DNA of 64,000 nucleotides from Pseudomonas sp. BMS12 (lineage in GTDB: Bacteria > Pseudomonadota > Gammaproteobacteria > Pseudomonadales > Pseudomonadaceae), in assembly GCF_001592875.1 (NCBI RefSeq), contig NZ_LSOF01000006.1, positions 233,085-297,084 on the forward strand, read 5' to 3'. The number at the start of each line of letters is the position of its first letter. Within the stretch, counting starts at the first letter, position 1. The translations under genes and the position numbers were made by a program. The notes beneath the pieces were generated by a model. The model saw only the letters and a program-made list of their open reading frames with translations. It was not told where the DNA came from and made no database searches. This document shows positions 5,074-13,906 of this stretch, piece by piece.

Positions 5074-7692
5074 TTAAACCGCCGCGCTCGCTTCCAGGAA
5101 GTCCTGGGCGAAACGTTGCAGCACGCCGCCGGCCTCGTAGATCAGCACTTCTTCGTCGCTGTCCAGGCGGCAGGTCATGGGCACTTCGACACGTTCGCCG
5201 TTACGGCGATTGATCACCAGAGTCAGCGTGGCGCGCGGCGTGCGCTCACCGATCACGTCGTAGCTCTCGGTGCCGTCGATACCCAGGGTCAGGCGCGTGG
5301 TGCCCGGCTTGAACTCCAGCGGCAGTACGCCCATGCCGATCAGGTTGGTGCGATGGATGCGCTCGAAGCCTTCGGCGGCAATCACTTCGACACCGGCCAG
5401 GCGCACGCCCTTGGCCGCCCAGTCGCGCGAGCTGCCCTGGCCGTAATCGGCACCAGCCACGATGATCAGGTTCTGCTTGCGCTCCATGTAGGTTTCGATG
5501 GCTTCCCACATGCGCATGACCTTGCCTTCCGGCTCGACACGAGCCAGCGAGCCTTTCTTCACCTGGCCGTCTACTACGGCCATCTCGTTGACCAGCTGGG
5601 GGTTGGCGAAGGTCGCGCGCTGGGCCGTCAGGTGGTCGCCGCGGTGGGTGGCGTAGGAGTTGAAGTCCTCCTCCGGCAAACCCATTTTGTGCAGGTACTC
5701 GCCAGCGGCCGAATCCATCAGGATGGCGTTGGACGGCGACAGGTGGTCGGTGGTGATGTTGTCCGGCAGCACCGCCAGCGGGCGCATGCCCTTGAGCGTA
5801 CGCTCACCGGCCAGCGCGCCCTCCCAGTACGGCGGGCGGCGGATGTAGGTGGACATCGGACGCCAGTCGTACAGCGGGCTCTCGGCCTCAGTCACGGCGC
5901 CCAGATCGAACATCGGGATGTAGATCTGACGGAACTGCTCCGGCTTCACCGCAGACGCCACGATCGCGTCGATTTCCTCGTCGCTCGGCCACAGGTCCTT
6001 CAGGGTCACCGGGTTGCCGGCCTGGTCATGGCCCAGCACGTCCTGCTCGATATCGAAGCGCACGGTGCCGGCAATGGCATAGGCCACCACCAGCGGCGGC
6101 GAAGCCAGGAAGGCCTGCTTGGCGTAGGGATGGATGCGCCCGTCGAAGTTGCGGTTGCCGGACAGCACGGCCGTGGCGTACAGGTCGCGGTCGATGATTT
6201 CCTGCTGGATTGCCGGGTCCAGTGCGCCGGACATGCCGTTGCAGGTGGTGCAGGCGTAGGCGACGATGCCGAAACCCAGCTGCTCCAGTTCGCTCAGCAG
6301 GCCGGCCTCTTCCAGATACAGCTTGGCAACCTTGGAGCCTGGCGCGAAGGAGGTCTTGACCCAGGGCTTGCGCAGCAGGCCCAGCGCGTTGGCCTTCTTC
6401 GCCAGCAGGCCGGCGGCGACCACGTTGCGCGGGTTGGACGTATTGGTGCAGCTGGTGATGGCGGCGATGATTACCGCGCCATCGGGCATCAGGCCCTGAG
6501 CCTCCTCGGCCTTGCCGGCCTGCAGCTTGGCTTCATCAGCGATACCACGCTCATGCAGTGCGGAAGTCGGCAGGCGCTTGTGCGGGTTGGACGGGCCGGC
6601 CATGTTGCGCACCACAGTGCTTAGGTCGAAGCTCAGCACCCGCTCGTACTCGGCCGTCACCAGCGCATCGGCCCACAGACCGGTGGTCTTGGCATAGTGC
6701 TCGACCAGCGCCACCTGCTCCGGCTCGCGACCGGTGAGTTTGAGGTAGTCGATGGTCTGCTGGTCGATGTAGAACATCGCGGCCGTAGCACCGTATTCCG
6801 GGCACATGTTGGAGATCGTCGCGCGGTCGCCGATGGACAGGCTGTCTGCGCCCTCGCCGAAGAACTCGACCCAGGCACCGACCACGCGCTCCTTGCGCAG
6901 GAACTCGGTGAGCGCCAGGACGATGTCGGTGGCGGTGATGCCGGGCTGGCGTTTGCCGGTGAGCTGTACGCCGACGATGTCAGGCAGGCGCATCATCGAG
7001 GCGCGACCGAGCATCACGGTTTCCGCCTCCAGGCCACCCACACCGATGGCGATCACGCCCAGGGCGTCGACGTGCGGGGTGTGACTGTCGGTGCCGACAC
7101 AGGTGTCGGGGAACGCTACGCCATCGCGAGCCTGGATCACCGGGCTCATCTTCTCCAGGTTGATCTGGTGCATGATGCCGTTGCCGGCAGGGATCACATC
7201 GACGTTCTTGAAAGCGGTCTTGGTCCACTCGATGAAGTGGAAGCGATCCTCGTTGCGGCGCTCCTCGACGGCGCGGTTCTTGTCGAACGAATCCGGATCG
7301 AAACCGGCGAACTCCACGGCCAGCGAATGGTCGACGATCAGCTGGGTCGGCACCACCGGGTTGACCTTGGCCGGGTCACCGCCCTGCTCGGCGATGGCGT
7401 CGCGCAGGCCGGCCAGGTCGACCAGCGCGGTCTGGCCGAGAATGTCGTGGCAGACCACGCGGGCCGGATACCAGGGGAAGTCCAGGTCACGCTTGCGCTC
7501 GATCAGCTGCTTGAGCGCATCACTCAGCAGCGCGGGATCACAGCGGCGCACCAGTTGTTCGGCAAGCACGCGAGAGACATAAGGCAGCTTGGCGTAGGCA
7601 CCGGGAGCGATGGCATCCACCGCCTCGCGGGTGTCGAAGTAGTCCAGCACGCTGCCGGGCAGGTTCTTGCGATATTGAGTGTTCATGGTCAT
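5074..7692 (-). CDS. acnD: 2-methylcitrate dehydratase, Fe/S-dependent (AcnD)
   Basis: AcnD is an aconitase-family [4Fe-4S] enzyme that dehydrates 2-methylcitrate in propionate breakdown. The 872-residue product shows the family order: catalytic [12 protein letters not shown] in the N-terminal third, the cluster ligand in SCTNTSNPR, the two further ligands in ACTTCNG, and a C-terminal swivel domain with [15 protein letters not shown]-type sequence. The ATG at 7692 overlaps the prpC stop codon by 4 bases (ATGA), implying translational coupling. Context with prpC, prpB and prpF separates it from the general aconitases AcnA and AcnB. Confidence 0.95.
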
Positions 7693-8849
7693 TTACGATC
7701 CTTGAGCGGCACGAACTTGAGGTCTTCAGGACCGACGTAGTTGGCGCTCGGGCGGATGATCTTGCCGTCGATGCGTTGCTCGATCACGTGGCTGGACCAG
7801 CCGGAGGTGCGGGCGATGACGAACAGCGGGGTGAACATGGCGGTGGGCACGCCCATCATGTGGTAGCTGACGGCGCTGAACCAATCGAGGTTGGGGAACA
7901 TCTTCTTGATGTCCCACATGATGGTTTCCAGGCGCTCGGCGATATCGAACATCTTGCTGTTGTTCTGCTCGGCGGACAGCTCGCGAGCGACTTCCTTGAT
8001 CACCTTGTTGCGCGGATCGGCCACGGTGTACACCGGGTGACCGAAGCCGATCACCACCTCCTTCTTCTCGACGCGGGCGCGGATATCGGCCTCGGCCTCG
8101 TCCGGGTTGTCGTAGCGCTTCTGGATCTCGAAGGCCACCTCGTTGGCGCCGCCGTGCTTCGGCCCGCGCAGCGCGCCGATGGCGCCGGCGATGCAGGAGT
8201 ACATGTCGGAGCCGGTGCCGGCGATCACCCGCGAGGTGAAGGTGGAGGCGTTGAACTCATGTTCGGCGTACAGATTGAGTGAGGTGTGCATGGCGCGCAC
8301 CCAGGACTCGCGCGGTTTCTCGCCGTGCAGCAGGTGCAGGAAGTGGCCGCCGATGGAGTCGTCATCGGTTTCCACATCGATGCGCCTGCCGTTGTGGCTG
8401 AAGTGGTACCAGTACAGCAGCGCGGAACCCAACGAGGCCATCAGCTTGTCAGCGATATCGCGAGCGCCCGGGTGGTTGTGGTCTTCCTTCTCCGGGGACA
8501 CGCAGCCCAGCACCGACACGGCGGTGCGCATCACGTCCATCGGGTGGGCGGATGGCGGCAGTTGTTCGAGGGACGCCTTGAGCGCCGCCGGGATGCCACG
8601 CAGGGCCTTGAGCTTGGCCTTGTAGCCAGCCAGCTCGGCGACATTGGGCAGCTTGCCGTGCACCAGCAGGTGGGCGATTTCCTCGAATTCGCAGCGGTTG
8701 GCGAAGTCGAGCACGTCATAGCCACGGTAATGCAGGTCGTTGCCGGTGCGGCCGACAGTGCACAGGGCGGTATTGCCGGCAGCGGTGCCGCTCAGCGCGA
8801 CGGATTTCTTCGGCTTGAAGCCCGGAGTAGTGGTCTCGGTGGCGCTCAT
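7689..8849 (-). CDS. prpC: 2-methylcitrate synthase
   Basis: PrpC condenses propionyl-CoA with oxaloacetate to 2-methylcitrate. The 386-residue, small citrate-synthase-family protein carries the catalytic motifs [22 protein letters not shown] and the Asp in [11 protein letters not shown]. Its length and the operon context (prpB upstream, acnD downstream) favour methylcitrate over citrate synthase. ATG at 8849 has GAGGAG 6 nt upstream. The 68-bp gap to prpB is the largest upstream of prpF apart from the REP-bearing one. Confidence 0.96.
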
Positions 8850-8917
8850 CGCGATCTCCTCATCTATTCGGTCGGATACTTTCTTGTTGTGTGCGGGCCT
8901 TCAGGCCCGCATCCCGA

Positions 8918-9805
8918 TCATTTCTTGCCGGCGGCGAACAGCGCGTCGAGCTTCTGCTCGAAGGCGTGGTAGCCGATGCGGTCGTACAGCTCGGCGCGAG
9001 TCTGCATCAGCTCGATGACGTCTTTCTGATGGCCGTTCTGGCGAATCGAGGTGTAGACACTTTCCGCCGCCTTGTTGGCGGCGCGGAAGGCCGACAGCGG
9101 GTAGAGCTGGATGGCCACACCGACCGAGGCCAGCTCGTCGCGGGTGAACAGCGGCGTGGCGCCAAATTCGGTGATATTGGCCAGCACCGGCACCTTCAGT
9201 GCATCGACGAAACGCTTGTAGGTCGGCAGGTCATAGGCAGCCTCGGCGAAGATGCCATCGGCACCGGCCTCGACGTAGCGCTGGCAACGCTCGATGGCGG
9301 CGTCCACGCCCTCGGCCTGGATGGCGTCGGTACGGGCGATCAGGAAGAAGTTCGGGTCGGTCTTGGCATCGGCTGCCGCGCGCACGCGGTCGACCATTTC
9401 CTCGCAGGAGACGATCTCCTTGCCCGGACGGTGGCCGCAGCGCTTGGCGCCAACCTGATCCTCGATATGCGCGGCAGCAGCGCCGGCCTTGATCAGGTTC
9501 TTGATGGTGCGCTCGATATTGAAGGCGCTAGGACCGAAGCCGGTGTCGATATCCACCAGCAGCGGCAAGTCGCAGACATCGGTGATGCGGCGTACGTCGG
9601 TGAGCACGTCGTCCAGTGTGTTGATGCCCAGGTCCGGCAGGCCCAGGGAACCGGCCGCGACACCACCACCGGACAGGTAGATGGCTTTGAAGCCGGCGCG
9701 CTTGGCCAGCAGCGCATGGTTGGCATTGATCGCGCCGATCACTTGCAGCGGGTGCTCGGCGGCGATCGCATCGCGGAAACGCTGGCCTGGAGTGGCTTGG
9801 GTCAT
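8918..9805 (-). CDS. prpB: 2-methylisocitrate lyase
   Basis: PrpB cleaves 2-methylisocitrate to pyruvate and succinate, the last step of the cycle. The 295-residue TIM-barrel protein of the isocitrate lyase/PEP mutase family contains the catalytic loop KRCGHRPGK and metal-binding VDIDTGFG and HIEDQ segments. The ATG at 9805 overlaps the regulator's stop codon by 4 bases and has a GAGGTGA ribosome site inside the end of the regulator gene. Regulator and enzyme are therefore coupled and probably co-transcribed. Confidence 0.97.
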
Positions 9806-10545
9806 GACTCACCTCTGGATTTGGACGGTTTGACGGCAGCGCCCTGCCCGGCCTGCTGCGAGGCCAGGTAATGGCGTTCGATATTGCGTTTGGATGCGGC
9901 GATATGCCGACGCATCAACAGCTCCGCCAGCTCGCCATCGCGCTCGGTGATGGCATCGAGAATGCGGTGGTGCTCGGCGAAAGCCTGATGCGGACGGTTG
10001 GGGGTAGCGGAAAACTGCAGCCGATACATGCGCACCAGTTGATACAGCTCGCCGCACAGCATGCGGGTCAGGGTCTGGTTACCGCTGCCCTGGATGATGC
10101 GGTAGTGGAAGTCGAAGTCGCCTTCCTGCTGGTAGTAACCGACGCCAGCCTTGAAGGCGGCATCCTGCTCGTGCAGATCGAGCACCCTGCGCAGCTCGTC
10201 GATTTCCGCCGGACTCATGCGCTCGGCAGCCAGGCGGCAGGCCATGCCCTCCAGCGATTCGCGAATCTCGTAGAGCTCAATCAGCTCGGCATGGCTGAGC
10301 GACACCACCCGTGCGCCGACATGCGGCACGCGCACCAACAGCTTCTGTCCTTCCAGGCGGTGAATAGCTTCACGCAGAGGGCCGCGACTGATGCCGTAGG
10401 TACGGGCCAGTTCGGGCTCGGAAATCTTGCTGCCGGGCGGAATGTCGCCGCGCACGATGGCCGCCTGGATGCTGCGAAACACGTGCTCGGAAAGCGTTTC
10501 GGGGTCGTCCTGGAGGACGCTGCTTATTTCGAGATGCTCTGGCAT
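9802..10545 (-). CDS. prpR: GntR-family (FCD) regulator of the methylcitrate operon
   Basis: The 247-residue protein has a winged helix-turn-helix at about residues 17-80 ([26 protein letters not shown]) and an all-helical FCD ligand domain at about 95-220, the FadR subgroup layout. It is unrelated to the sigma-54-type PrpR of enteric bacteria although the locus role is the same. As first gene of the operon with a 4-base overlap into prpB, it probably represses its own promoter and is released by a cycle intermediate, likely a methylcitrate-type acid (inference). Two TTGTCGACA palindromes lie just upstream of its start at 10545. Confidence 0.93.
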
Positions 10546-10807: not shown

Positions 10808-11344
10808 ATGCGACTCAAGCCCTCCGTCCTCCTGCTCAGCTGCAGCCTTCTTCCCGGCCTGGCTTCTGCCGCCGACAAGACCGTCTATGGTCTGAACGAA
10901 TACGTCAGCCTGGACGATCTCGACATCGAAGTTGCCGCCAAACTGGACACCGGAGCCAAGACCGCGTCGCTCAGTGCCCGCGACATCGAGCGCTTCAAGC
11001 GTGACGGCGAGACCTGGGTACGCTTCTACCTGGCCATCGATGATGCCCACGAAAAGCCTATCGAGCGGCCACTGGCCCGCATCAGCAAGATCAAGCGTCG
11101 CGCTGGCGACTATGATGCGGATAGCGGCAAGAGCTATACCGCACGCCCAGTAATCGAACTACCGGTGTGCATGGGCAAGACTCATCACACCATTGAGGTC
11201 AACCTGACCGACCGCAGCGCGTTCCAGTACCCGCTGCTGATCGGCTCCGAAGCGCTCAAGCGCCTCGGCGCGGTGGTTGACCCCAGCCTCAAATACGCCG
11301 CCGGCAAACCCGGCTGTAACCCTGACGCAAACTCTGCCGAGTAA
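10808..11344 (+). CDS. secreted retropepsin-like aspartic protease (Zn_protease/RimB family, PF05618)
   Basis: The 178-residue product begins with a signal peptide (MRLKPSVLLLS..., likely cut after ASA at 19-21), so it should act in the periplasm. The mature part holds LDTGAKTASLSA with the D47-T48-G49-A50 loop of retroviral-type aspartic proteases, and a hydrophobic YPLLIGSEAL strand at 141-150. One DTGA per chain implies a homodimer, as in retropepsins. Databases often call this family 'ATP-dependent zinc protease', but I see neither a P-loop nor HExxH. ATG at 10808 has AAGGA 4-5 nt upstream. It is 5 bp from the 7TM gene, and the trio looks like one operon. Substrate unknown. Confidence 0.85.
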   Translation: MRLKPSVLLLSCSLLPGLASAADKTVYGLNEYVSLDDLDIEVAAKLDTGAKTASLSARDIERFKRDGETWVRFYLAIDDAHEKPIERPLARISKIKRRAGDYDADSGKSYTARPVIELPVCMGKTHHTIEVNLTDRSAFQYPLLIGSEALKRLGAVVDPSLKYAAGKPGCNPDANSAE

Positions 11345-11349
11345 CTCTC

Positions 11350-12876
11350 ATGCGCTCTCTCAACCTGCATCTGAAAGTCCTCATCACCCTCCTGGTGGCG
11401 CTGGGCATTCTGGTCACGGCCTACCAGATCTTCATCCTCGGCATCCCGGTGACCGAAGACGAGACTGACGACCTGTGGAACATCGACGCCAAGATCGAGT
11501 TCCAGGCGAGCCCGCGCGAGCCGGTCAAGGTGCAGATGTTCGTGCCGCCGCTGAACCAGGACTATGTAAGCCTCAACGAGAGCTTCATCTCCAACAACTA
11601 TGGCGTGAGCGTCAATCGCGTCGACGGCAACCGCAAGCTGACCTGGTCGGCCCGCCGTGCCAACGGCAAGCAGACTCTCTATTACCGCCTGGTGCTGACC
11701 AAGCGCTACAGCGGCGAGCCGGCCAAGGCCAAGGGCCCGATCTTCCGCGACAGCATCGAAGTGGAAGGCCCCGAGAAGATTGCCGCCGAAGCCCTGCTCG
11801 CCCCCATTCGCCAGCACTCGGCCGACGTCGAGACCTTCATCAGCGAAGCCATCAAGCGGGTTAACAACGTCAATGACGACAACGTCAAGCTGCTGCTTGG
11901 CGGCGACACCTCCTCGGCCAACAAGGCCAAGGTTATCGATCTTCTGCTCTCCATCGCCCATGTGCCAATGGAGCGCGTGCACACCATCCGCCTGGCCAGC
12001 GATATCCAGCAAAGCCCCGAGCTGTGGCTGCGCAGCTTCAATGGCGAGAACTGGCTGTACTTCAATCCGGAAAGCGGCCAGCAGGGTTTGCCGGCGGACC
12101 GCGTGGTGTGGTGGACGGGTGACGAGCCGCTGATCAGCATTGATGGCGGCAAGAAGCCGCAGGTCAGCTTCACCCTGAACAACAGCGAAATGAACGCCAT
12201 CCGCCTGGCCAAGCTGACCGACGAAAACACCGACGTCGACTTCCTCGAATACTCCCTGTACGGCCTGCCGCTGCAGACCCAGCAGACCTTCATCATCATG
12301 GTGATGATCCCCATCGGCGTACTGGTCATTCTGGTGCTGCGCAACCTGATCGGCCTGCAGACCCTCGGCACCTTCACACCGGTACTGATCGCCCTGGCCT
12401 TCCGCGAAATGCAGCTGGGCTACGGAATCATGTTCTTCACCATCATCACGGCGCTTGGCCTGATGCTGCGCTCCTACCTCGAGCACCTGAAACTGCAGAT
12501 GCTGCCACGCCTCTCGGTAGTGCTGACCTTTGTGGTGATGCTGATTGCCACCATCAGCCTGCTCAGCCACAAACTGGGGCTTGAACGCGGTCTGTCGGTT
12601 GCATTGTTCCCGATGGTGATCCTGACCATGACCATCGAACGCCTGTCGATCACCTGGGAAGAGCGCGGCGGCAGCCACGCGATGAAAGTGGCCATCGGCA
12701 CCCTGTTTGCCGCATCGCTGGCGCACTTGCTGATGAGCGTGCCGCAGCTGAGCTACTTCGTGTTCACCTTCCCGGCCGTGCTGCTGATCCTGGTGGGTTT
12801 CATGTTGGCCATGGGCCGTTATCGCGGCTATCGCCTGACCGAACTGTTCCGCTTCAAAGCCTTTCTGAAGGACTGA
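11350..12876 (+). CDS. inactive transglutaminase-like domain fused to 7TM (PF14400/PF14402 type)
   Basis: The 508-residue protein has one N-terminal membrane helix (8-28), a large periplasmic part (30-310) and about seven helices (312-485). Residues 184-215 align with the transglutaminase helix of TgpA in this window, but S189 replaces the catalytic Cys; E224 and N239 fall where TgpA has His and Asp, so the enzyme should be dead. This matches the 'inactive transglutaminase plus 7TM' families described with ATP-grasp ligases. A likely role is sensing or presenting a peptide to the partner protease outside and ligase inside (inference). It sits 5 bp after the protease and 3 bp before the ligase. 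Confidence 0.85.
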   Translation: MRSLNLHLKVLITLLVALGILVTAYQIFILGIPVTEDETDDLWNIDAKIEFQASPREPVKVQMFVPPLNQDYVSLNESFISNNYGVSVNRVDGNRKLTWSARRANGKQTLYYRLVLTKRYSGEPAKAKGPIFRDSIEVEGPEKIAAEALLAPIRQHSADVETFISEAIKRVNNVNDDNVKLLLGGDTSSANKAKVIDLLLSIAHVPMERVHTIRLASDIQQSPELWLRSFNGENWLYFNPESGQQGLPADRVVWWTGDEPLISIDGGKKPQVSFTLNNSEMNAIRLAKLTDENTDVDFLEYSLYGLPLQTQQTFIIMVMIPIGVLVILVLRNLIGLQTLGTFTPVLIALAFREMQLGYGIMFFTIITALGLMLRSYLEHLKLQMLPRLSVVLTFVVMLIATISLLSHKLGLERGLSVALFPMVILTMTIERLSITWEERGGSHAMKVAIGTLFAASLAHLLMSVPQLSYFVFTFPAVLLILVGFMLAMGRYRGYRLTELFRFKAFLKD

Positions 12877-12879
12877 GCC

Positions 12880-13866
12880 ATGTTTGGCATGATCAAGACG
12901 TGGAAGGCCCTGGAAGCCAAAGGCATCATGGGGATCAACCGGCGCAATGCGGACTACGTGCTGAAGTACAACAAGCGCCACCTGTACCCGATTGTCGATG
13001 ACAAGATCATCACCAAGGAACGGGCCCTGGCCGCCGGCATCAATGTGCCGGAGATGTACGGCATCATCTCCACCGAGAAAGAGATCGACAAACTCTCCGA
13101 GATCATTGGCGGGCGCAGCGACTTCGTCATCAAGCCCGCTCAGGGCGCTGGCGGCGACGGCATCCTGGTGGTCGCCGACCGCTTCGAGGAGCGCTACAAG
13201 ACCGTCTCTGGGAAGATCATCACTCACGAGGAAATCGAGCATCAGATTTCCAGCATCCTCACCGGCCTGTACTCCCTGGGCGGCCATCGCGACCGCGCCC
13301 TGATCGAGTACCGAGTGACCCCGGACCCGATCTTCAAGAGCATCAGCTACGAAGGTGTACCGGACATCCGCATCATCGTGCTGATGGGCTACCCGGTGAT
13401 GGCCATGCTGCGCCTGCCAACCCGCCAGTCCAACGGCAAGGCCAACCTGCACCAGGGCGCCATCGGTGTAGGTGTCGACCTGGCTACCGGGCTTACCCTG
13501 CGCGGCACCTGGCTGAACAACAAGATCAGGAAGCACCCGGATACCACCAACTCGGTGGACGGCGTACAGCTGCCCAACTGGAACGGCTTCATGAAGCTCG
13601 CTGCCGGTTGCTATGAGCTGTGCGGCCTGGGTTATATCGGTGTCGACATGGTGCTGGACATTGAGAAGGGCCCGCTGATTCTGGAGCTCAATGCCCGTCC
13701 CGGGCTGAATATCCAGATTGCCAACGATTGCGGCCTGACTCATCGCGCCCATGCGGTAGAGGCACATATCGCCGAGCTGGCGAAGAGTGGCGTGCAGGAG
13801 TCTGCCGAGGAGCGCGTACGCTTCTCCCAACAACTGTTCGGCCACATCAAGAGCCACAACGACTGA
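12880..13866 (+). CDS. alpha-L-glutamate-ligase-like ATP-grasp enzyme (PF14397 type)
   Basis: The 328-residue protein has no signal peptide and should be cytoplasmic. The ATP-grasp nucleotide loop is VIKPAQGAGGDGIL (83-96), and the metal site lies in D256 and ELNARPG (E269, N271). It resembles RimK-type amino-acid ligases that attach residues through carboxyl phosphates; the acceptor is unknown. ATG at 12880 has AAGGA 8 nt upstream, inside the end of the 7TM gene. A second ATG at 12889 is possible. In P. aeruginosa, as I remember it, the same trio lies next to ppsR; here the prp operon lies between. Confidence 0.87.
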   Translation: MFGMIKTWKALEAKGIMGINRRNADYVLKYNKRHLYPIVDDKIITKERALAAGINVPEMYGIISTEKEIDKLSEIIGGRSDFVIKPAQGAGGDGILVVADRFEERYKTVSGKIITHEEIEHQISSILTGLYSLGGHRDRALIEYRVTPDPIFKSISYEGVPDIRIIVLMGYPVMAMLRLPTRQSNGKANLHQGAIGVGVDLATGLTLRGTWLNNKIRKHPDTTNSVDGVQLPNWNGFMKLAAGCYELCGLGYIGVDMVLDIEKGPLILELNARPGLNIQIANDCGLTHRAHAVEAHIAELAKSGVQESAEERVRFSQQLFGHIKSHND

Positions 13867-13879
13867 TACGTTCCCCTGG

Positions 13880-13906
13880 AAAAGCCCGGCTCCGGCCGGG
13901 CTTTTT
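13880..13906 (+). terminator. terminator of the ATP-grasp cassette
   Basis: A perfect 11-bp stem (13880-13890 with 13895-13905, loop of 4) ends in five T, 13 bp past the ligase stop codon. Confidence 0.9.

Follow-up and report, generated by a model that had tools for sequence, protein, structure and literature searches.

The rloABC operon was described in Pseudomonas aeruginosa by Lormand et al. in 2025 (PMC12239564), where in strain PA14 it corresponds to PA14_41690-41710-41730. According to that account, the proteases RloA, RloA2 and RloA3 are redundant, and a triple mutant lacking them needs salt for growth, makes poor biofilm, shows raised beta-lactam sensitivity and has misshapen cells. 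When rloB, rloC or both are deleted, growth without salt is fully restored and the other defects are partly relieved; mutants in rloB or rloC alone show milder defects of their own (PMC12239564). The operon bears on osmotic survival, biofilm and beta-lactam sensitivity in this species. Crystal structures of RloA orthologues are reported to be dimeric and retropepsin-like with a positively charged channel; polyglutamate is cleaved in vitro. Glutamate runs of 8 or 10 are cut (those of six or fewer are not), whether they lie inside a protein or at its end, and RloA needs its catalytic Asp (PMC12239564). As candidates for the in vivo substrate, the authors discuss polyglutamylated proteins as well as free polyglutamate (PMC12239564).

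In the window (the whole 64,000-nt stretch of Pseudomonas sp. BMS12 that was analysed), three plus-strand genes (Table 1) lie exactly where the first-pass annotation had placed a tightly packed cassette, with gaps of 5 nt (rloA-rloB) and 3 nt (rloB-rloC), and the D47-T-G motif that it read in the first protein is present. Its single terminator held up in part: a stem-loop does follow rloC, but the number of terminator-like sites in the region (3 found vs 2.2 expected, sd 2.0) was near expectation. Two promoter-like sites were found by the scan against 1.0 expected, none of them between the three genes, and rloABC are probably co-transcribed in BMS12. On the other hand, the cassette had been proposed as an undescribed system, which it is not: the proteins score above the cut-offs of the NCBIfam RloA and RloB models and of TIGR02291, and rlo was published in 2025 (PMC12239564). 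With an RloA-family protease, an RloB carrying a dead transglutaminase domain and 7TM, and RloC downstream, it is the rloABC operon, an ordinary orthologue of the one already described.

Table 1. Features of the rlo locus in the window.
Feature	Description	Positions	Strand	Models or remarks
rloA	secreted retropepsin-like aspartic protease, 178 aa	10808..11344	+	NF052262, PF05618
rloB	inner-membrane protein, 508 aa	11350..12876	+	NF052267, PF14400, PF14402
rloC	cytoplasmic ATP-grasp ligase of RimK kind, 328 aa	12880..13866	+	TIGR02291, PF14397
stem-loop	weak, terminator-like, after rloC	13888..13902	+	5-bp stem, T-rich tail

RloA matched NF052262 (retropep_RloA1) with 328.5 bits (cut-off 280) and PF05618 (Zn_protease) with an E of 3.9e-46, and by eye its N-terminus is hydrophobic and signal-peptide-like. 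Among 41 homologues adjoining rloB, D47, R113 and R136 were conserved in all, R91 in 39, and K45 as K or R in all 41. By our mapping, which transfers the published RloA numbering by an offset of one, R113, R136, R91 and K45 would be the published polyglutamate contacts. The BMS12 genome (4.51 Mb, 46 contigs) holds two PF05618 proteins, RloA and one identified as RimB (NF052261, 291.6 bits, cut-off 200), and thus only one secreted RloA was found, as against three in P. aeruginosa; the phenotype described for P. aeruginosa is predicted to appear in BMS12 after deletion of this one gene. PF05618 matches in 24 congeners numbered three in 22 genomes, four in one and two in one.

RloC, the only TIGR02291 (rimK_rel_E_lig) match of the genome, scored 560.5 bits against a cut-off of 314.2. 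Its best Pfam family, PF14397 (ATPgrasp_ST; E 2.4e-97), is named "sugar-transfer associated"; the match to PF08443 (RimK) was weaker (E 6.4e-10), and Pfam found no RimK N-terminal domain (PF18030) in the protein. In 79 homologues, drawn both from rlo-type loci and from a sister group (group 2), K85 was kept in 77, E269 and N271 in 78, and R164, R178, N189 and H191 in all; given these near-invariant positions, RloC was taken as a presumably active ligase. Several of the polyglutamate contacts reported for P. aeruginosa RimK (S7, R8, S14, R64 and S68; PMC10092738) belong to the N-terminal region missing from RloC, so the acceptor or product may differ. By analogy, from the specificity of RloA and family resemblance, glutamate would be the substrate of RloC.

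RloB reached 1061.6 bits against NF052267 (inact_TG_RloB; cut-off 900) and matched PF14400 (Transglut_i_TM; E 3.1e-47) and PF14402 (7TM_transglut; E 4.6e-97), the latter being the only such match in the genome; plasmid records matching RloB were few (3 of 72,556). One N-terminal helix is followed by the transglutaminase-like domain and then by a C-terminal membrane domain. In the alignment the triad positions read S-E-N: with S and E in place of the catalytic Cys and His, RloB is not an active transglutaminase. In a structure model (71-row alignment; pLDDT 91.9, pTM 0.80), residues 40-283 resembled the transglutaminase-like 3isr (Z 15.6, rmsd 3.6, 216 aligned; Foldseek E 1.5e-8). When the RloB profile was run against PDB sequences, transglutaminase-type chains likewise came up at modest E (5e-5 for 6g49, 9e-4 for 3isr), together with ten rows at E of at least 0.25.

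The first-pass annotation had asked whether the three genes co-occur and which fourth gene recurs beside them. PF14402 was found in 59 of 276 genomes of the class (58 over cut-off), and TIGR02291 over its cut-off in 46 (86 at E up to 0.001, the rest weaker). In all 46 a PF14402 match lay on the same contig and strand with the ligase directly after it and at most 279 nt between match ends, and six further TIGR02291 matches below the cut-off likewise followed PF14402 directly within 279 nt. Among the 13 other PF14402 genomes, six held these weaker pairs (group 2, 244-268 bits), one (G213) was cut by a contig end, and six lacked a TIGR02291 match beside PF14402 (five belonging to a third group, plus G067 with a sub-cut-off PF14402). 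PF05618 occurred, among 80 genomes, in 45 of 46 rlo-type, three of six group 2, five of the six remaining ones and nine of 22 without PF14402. RloA thus often occurs in genomes that lack RloB, whereas RloB and RloC are found as a pair. Moreover, a GTDB genome scan with a group 2 query, from which the best 80 of 577 loci were kept (so that group sizes are not frequencies), had RloC directly after RloB in 79/80, the exception (L107) being a contig that ends 94 nt after RloB. The 50 non-sister, rlo-type loci among these best 80 of 577 carried RloA adjacently in 41 cases and missed it in nine, and showed no constant fourth gene, no neighbour cluster occurring in more than six. The genes therefore co-occur far beyond chance, and the near-obligate RloB-RloC pairing is new here. 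That the three are chance neighbours from unrelated pathways is contradicted both by this co-occurrence and by the published epistasis (PMC12239564) and can hardly be credited. In one genome (G163, locus L041), the RloB and RloC counterparts are fused in one 838-aa ORF in the order Transglut_core, 7TM_transglut, ATPgrasp_ST, a single case and so weak evidence, which places the ligase C-terminal to the membrane domain; in the relative G584, matches to the two halves lie in different frames, and the fusion is not common to it.

The sister group (L074-L103, 30 loci of the best 80 of 577) shares with rlo a homologous membrane domain and an adjacent ligase in 30/30 loci and differs from it in several respects: i) the catalytic Cys was kept in 29/29 readable rows and the His in 30/30, with Asp (21/30) or Cys (9/30) as third triad residue, as against Cys in the catalytic column in 0/50 non-sister loci, a count in which L107 (Planctomycetia by label), with Cys one column off, figures as lacking it and may belong with the active group; ii) RloA was adjacent in 0/30 vs 41/50, its absence being fully visible only in the 25/30 group 2 loci with at least 700 nt upstream of RloB; iii) TPR proteins were found in 25/30 vs 0/50, and secreted proteins of about 400 aa that form one cluster in 11/30 vs 0/50, many contigs being short, so that both counts are lower bounds. 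The same Cys split was seen in the 43-row class-survey set (6/6 vs 0/37). By eye, some of the upstream TPR proteins start lipoprotein-like and most of the downstream ones start with a membrane helix. The 400-aa protein is predicted to be a beta-barrel of 16 long strands (pLDDT 88.6, pTM 0.82), and the best matches of the model were porins (E 6.4e-10). Separately, an M14 carboxypeptidase-like protein directly precedes RloB in L088 and L093. By record label, which may be wrong for assembled genomes, group 2 spreads over many phyla (Gamma-, Zeta- and Deltaproteobacteria, Nitrospirota, Bacteroidetes, Chlorobiota, Spirochaetes, Archangium/Anaeromyxobacter and others).

In a tree of the membrane domain, with the transglutaminase columns left out, the 35 Cys-bearing rows all lay to the same side of a branch with SH-aLRT 97; the tree was built by a quick method, with 41 of 111 branches weak, some branches long and duplicates included. 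Three pairs of its rows (L037/L080, L039/L083 and L040/L074) are identical and apparently the same loci twice, and counts are given per survey and not pooled. Because the tree is unrooted, we infer rather than read from it that rlo is the reduced form. In three loci (L125, L137 and L142) a degenerate transglutaminase occurs without RloA beside it, so protease and transglutaminase do not replace one another in every case. Among the papers searched, which did not include the amidoligase paper of Iyer et al. 2009 (a source of these family names, cited in PMC12096838), none was seen to describe the group 2 system by title and abstract. Together the features of group 2 suggest that it is an envelope-spanning synthesis-export machine related to rlo, whose transglutaminase domain would couple or release the product.

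On balance we lean towards a mechanism in which RloC builds an acidic oligopeptide, most likely poly-alpha-L-glutamate, RloB carries it across the inner membrane and RloA trims it outside. Cytoplasmic RloC, driven by ATP, would make the chain either free or on a carrier; RloB would be its route, conducting or handing it across the inner membrane, with the degenerate transglutaminase domain binding and holding it as it emerges in the periplasm; and dimeric secreted RloA would cut chains of at least eight glutamates. A cell lacking RloA would accumulate such chains in its envelope, and this would account for its death in the absence of salt and for its rescue once RloB or RloC is lost too. Several lines of evidence are consistent with this: i) the published genetics and biochemistry (PMC12239564); ii) the RloB-RloC pairing; iii) the kept RloA contact residues; iv) the fusion; v) the export-type partners of group 2. 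Other observations speak against it: i) RloC lacks the RimK N-terminal domain and ATPgrasp_ST is named for sugar transfer; ii) single rloB and rloC mutants have the mild defects of their own reported for P. aeruginosa (PMC12239564); iii) the fusion is one case, absent in G584; iv) nine of 50 non-sister loci (best 80 of 577) have no adjacent RloA. The first-pass annotation had likewise supposed ligation inside, passage through the membrane and trimming outside, a scheme in agreement with the published genetics and with the comparisons made here, even though the cassette is not undescribed.

Alternatively, RloC might glutamylate an envelope protein or lipid-linked precursor which RloB presents or flips and from which RloA removes the tag, giving reversible control of cell-wall synthesis instead of a free polymer. 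We regard this as rather unlikely. RimK does modify a protein and RimB reverse it, RloA does cut both internal and terminal polyglutamate in proteins, and the reported mutant defects mainly concern cell shape and beta-lactams (PMC12239564); however, the acceptor is not known, and the TPR and barrel partners of group 2 would be needless for a tag.

The membrane domain of RloB bears on how the chain could cross. Fold comparison gave no clear structural match for it, transporters included, which also counts against the proposed export: the best folds were an RNF-complex chain (Z 8.7, rmsd 3.4, 125 aligned), a methanogen methyltransferase-complex chain (Z 7.3) and AcrB-type chains (Z about 5-6), and helical bundles with Z under about 13 may reflect a common arrangement only; the comparison rules out no known fold. 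An hhalign comparison of its two halves found no internal repeat (probability 0.3% and 0.2%). Its charged and proline positions are near-invariant across both groups (R431, E438, R495 and R501 in 71/71 rows, R331 and E430 in 70, R374 in 69), and one might speculate that the conserved charged residues line a path for an acidic chain. RloB could instead be a sensor, its periplasmic domain binding peptide fragments and its membrane part switching RloC, with the chain reaching the periplasm otherwise or never. The lost catalytic residues, the peptide binding proposed for such domains (PMC3482391) and the missing transporter match would suit a sensor, but four charged residues kept in 71/71 rows exceed the need of a simple anchor, and rescue is as complete without RloB as it is without RloC (PMC12239564), so that a regulator would fit only as an activator; we judge the sensor improbable. 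Returning to synthesis and export, it is conceivable, though we hold it with considerable doubt, that RloB and RloC form the core of a synthase-exporter for acidic polymers, powered by the ATP-grasp ligase, of which group 2 is a fuller, envelope-spanning form with TPR proteins, an outer-membrane barrel and a live transglutaminase that ties or releases the exported chain, and the rlo branch one in which the transglutaminase has died, the envelope parts are absent and secreted RloA has taken over control of the chain. Group 2 offers a concrete hypothesis (synthase, membrane passage, and a transglutaminase or protease as control) together with further organisms for its test.

Among known systems, PgsBC/CapBC makes and exports polyglutamate by a ligase and a small membrane partner, and the proposed RloC-RloB pair would work like it; CapB is a Mur-ligase-type enzyme, not ATP-grasp. 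HMMER found CapC (PF14102) in 0/43 RloB proteins at E up to 10. The hhalign score of the RloB membrane domain against the first CapC repeats (24.7, probability 6.7%) exceeded 120/120 column shuffles (maximum 21.9), and against both repeats (22.5) at least one of 120 shuffles was higher (maximum 23.0); at probabilities of 6.7% or below this is suggestive only, and homology to CapC is not claimed. RimB-RimK(-RimA) is likewise a pair of retropepsin-like protease and ATP-grasp ligase, RloA being a relative of RimB and RloC a more remote one of RimK. It differs in being cytoplasmic, with no membrane partner in the published description (PMC12239564), and in the RimK N-terminal domain that RloC lacks; BMS12 has its RimB elsewhere, and the window proteins fall outside both families (84.8 bits for the protease against NF052261, cut-off 200; 51.1 bits for the ligase against TIGR00768, cut-off 143.4). 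The operon in the window is itself ordinary; of more interest are the sister group and the background with a single secreted RloA. It agrees with rlo of P. aeruginosa PA14 in its three families, their order, RloA and RloB models over cut-off and the kept putative polyglutamate contacts, and differs in that P. aeruginosa carries two additional secreted paralogues of RloA, whereas the PF05618 proteins of BMS12 are RloA and RimB only.

Three loci labelled Deltaproteobacteria (L125, L137 and L142) carry a degenerate transglutaminase domain in RloB, the transglutaminase-like 7TM protein, together with an adjacent ATP-grasp ligase and no adjacent gene for RloA, the secreted retropepsin-like protease; these loci are an intermediate form. 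The RloB relative of L107, labelled Planctomycetia and lying at the end of its contig, has a Cys shifted one column from the catalytic column and retains the His and Cys of the other two triad positions. L107 may therefore not belong to group 2 (the sister group that retains the transglutaminase Cys and His) and yet be active.

A third, divergent group (L036, L042, L043, L044, L045 and L047) also encodes a degenerate transglutaminase plus 7TM domain, and in none of these six loci does a TIGR02291 ligase (the RloC family) adjoin the 7TM gene. An RloA-like gene adjoins in L036, L043, L044 and L047; moreover, a RimK gene adjoins in L036, and an RLAN-RimK gene lies ~4 kb off in L043.

In genome G163, RloB- and RloC-like parts (RloB' and RloC') are encoded by a single 838-aa open frame, and in its relative G584 they are unfused. 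In the window itself, ORFs resemble, by eye, a 2-methylcitrate (prp) cluster together with a GntR-type regulator.

Coordinates of RloB relatives and neighbouring genes
Locus	Position	Strand	Feature	Context
L107	6239-7861		RloB relative	
L088	7981-8934		M14 zinc-carboxypeptidase-like protein	immediately upstream of group 2 RloB
L093	8001-8969		M14 zinc-carboxypeptidase-like protein	immediately upstream of group 2 RloB
L041 (G163)	6475-8991		RloB'-RloC' fusion	
Window	5074-10545	minus	prp-like cluster	upstream of rloA

Proteins with two repeats resembling CapC (PF14102), the polyglutamate-synthase membrane protein, were found at L055, L056 and L068-L070, which represent 5 of the 66 genomes covered in a single order, with open frames of ~1081-1089 aa, one of them cut at 502. 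The M14-like genes of group 2 occur in one Chlorobiota and one Bacteroidetes record; their products, a possible alternative trimming enzyme, show weak likeness to the murein tripeptide amidase MpaA.
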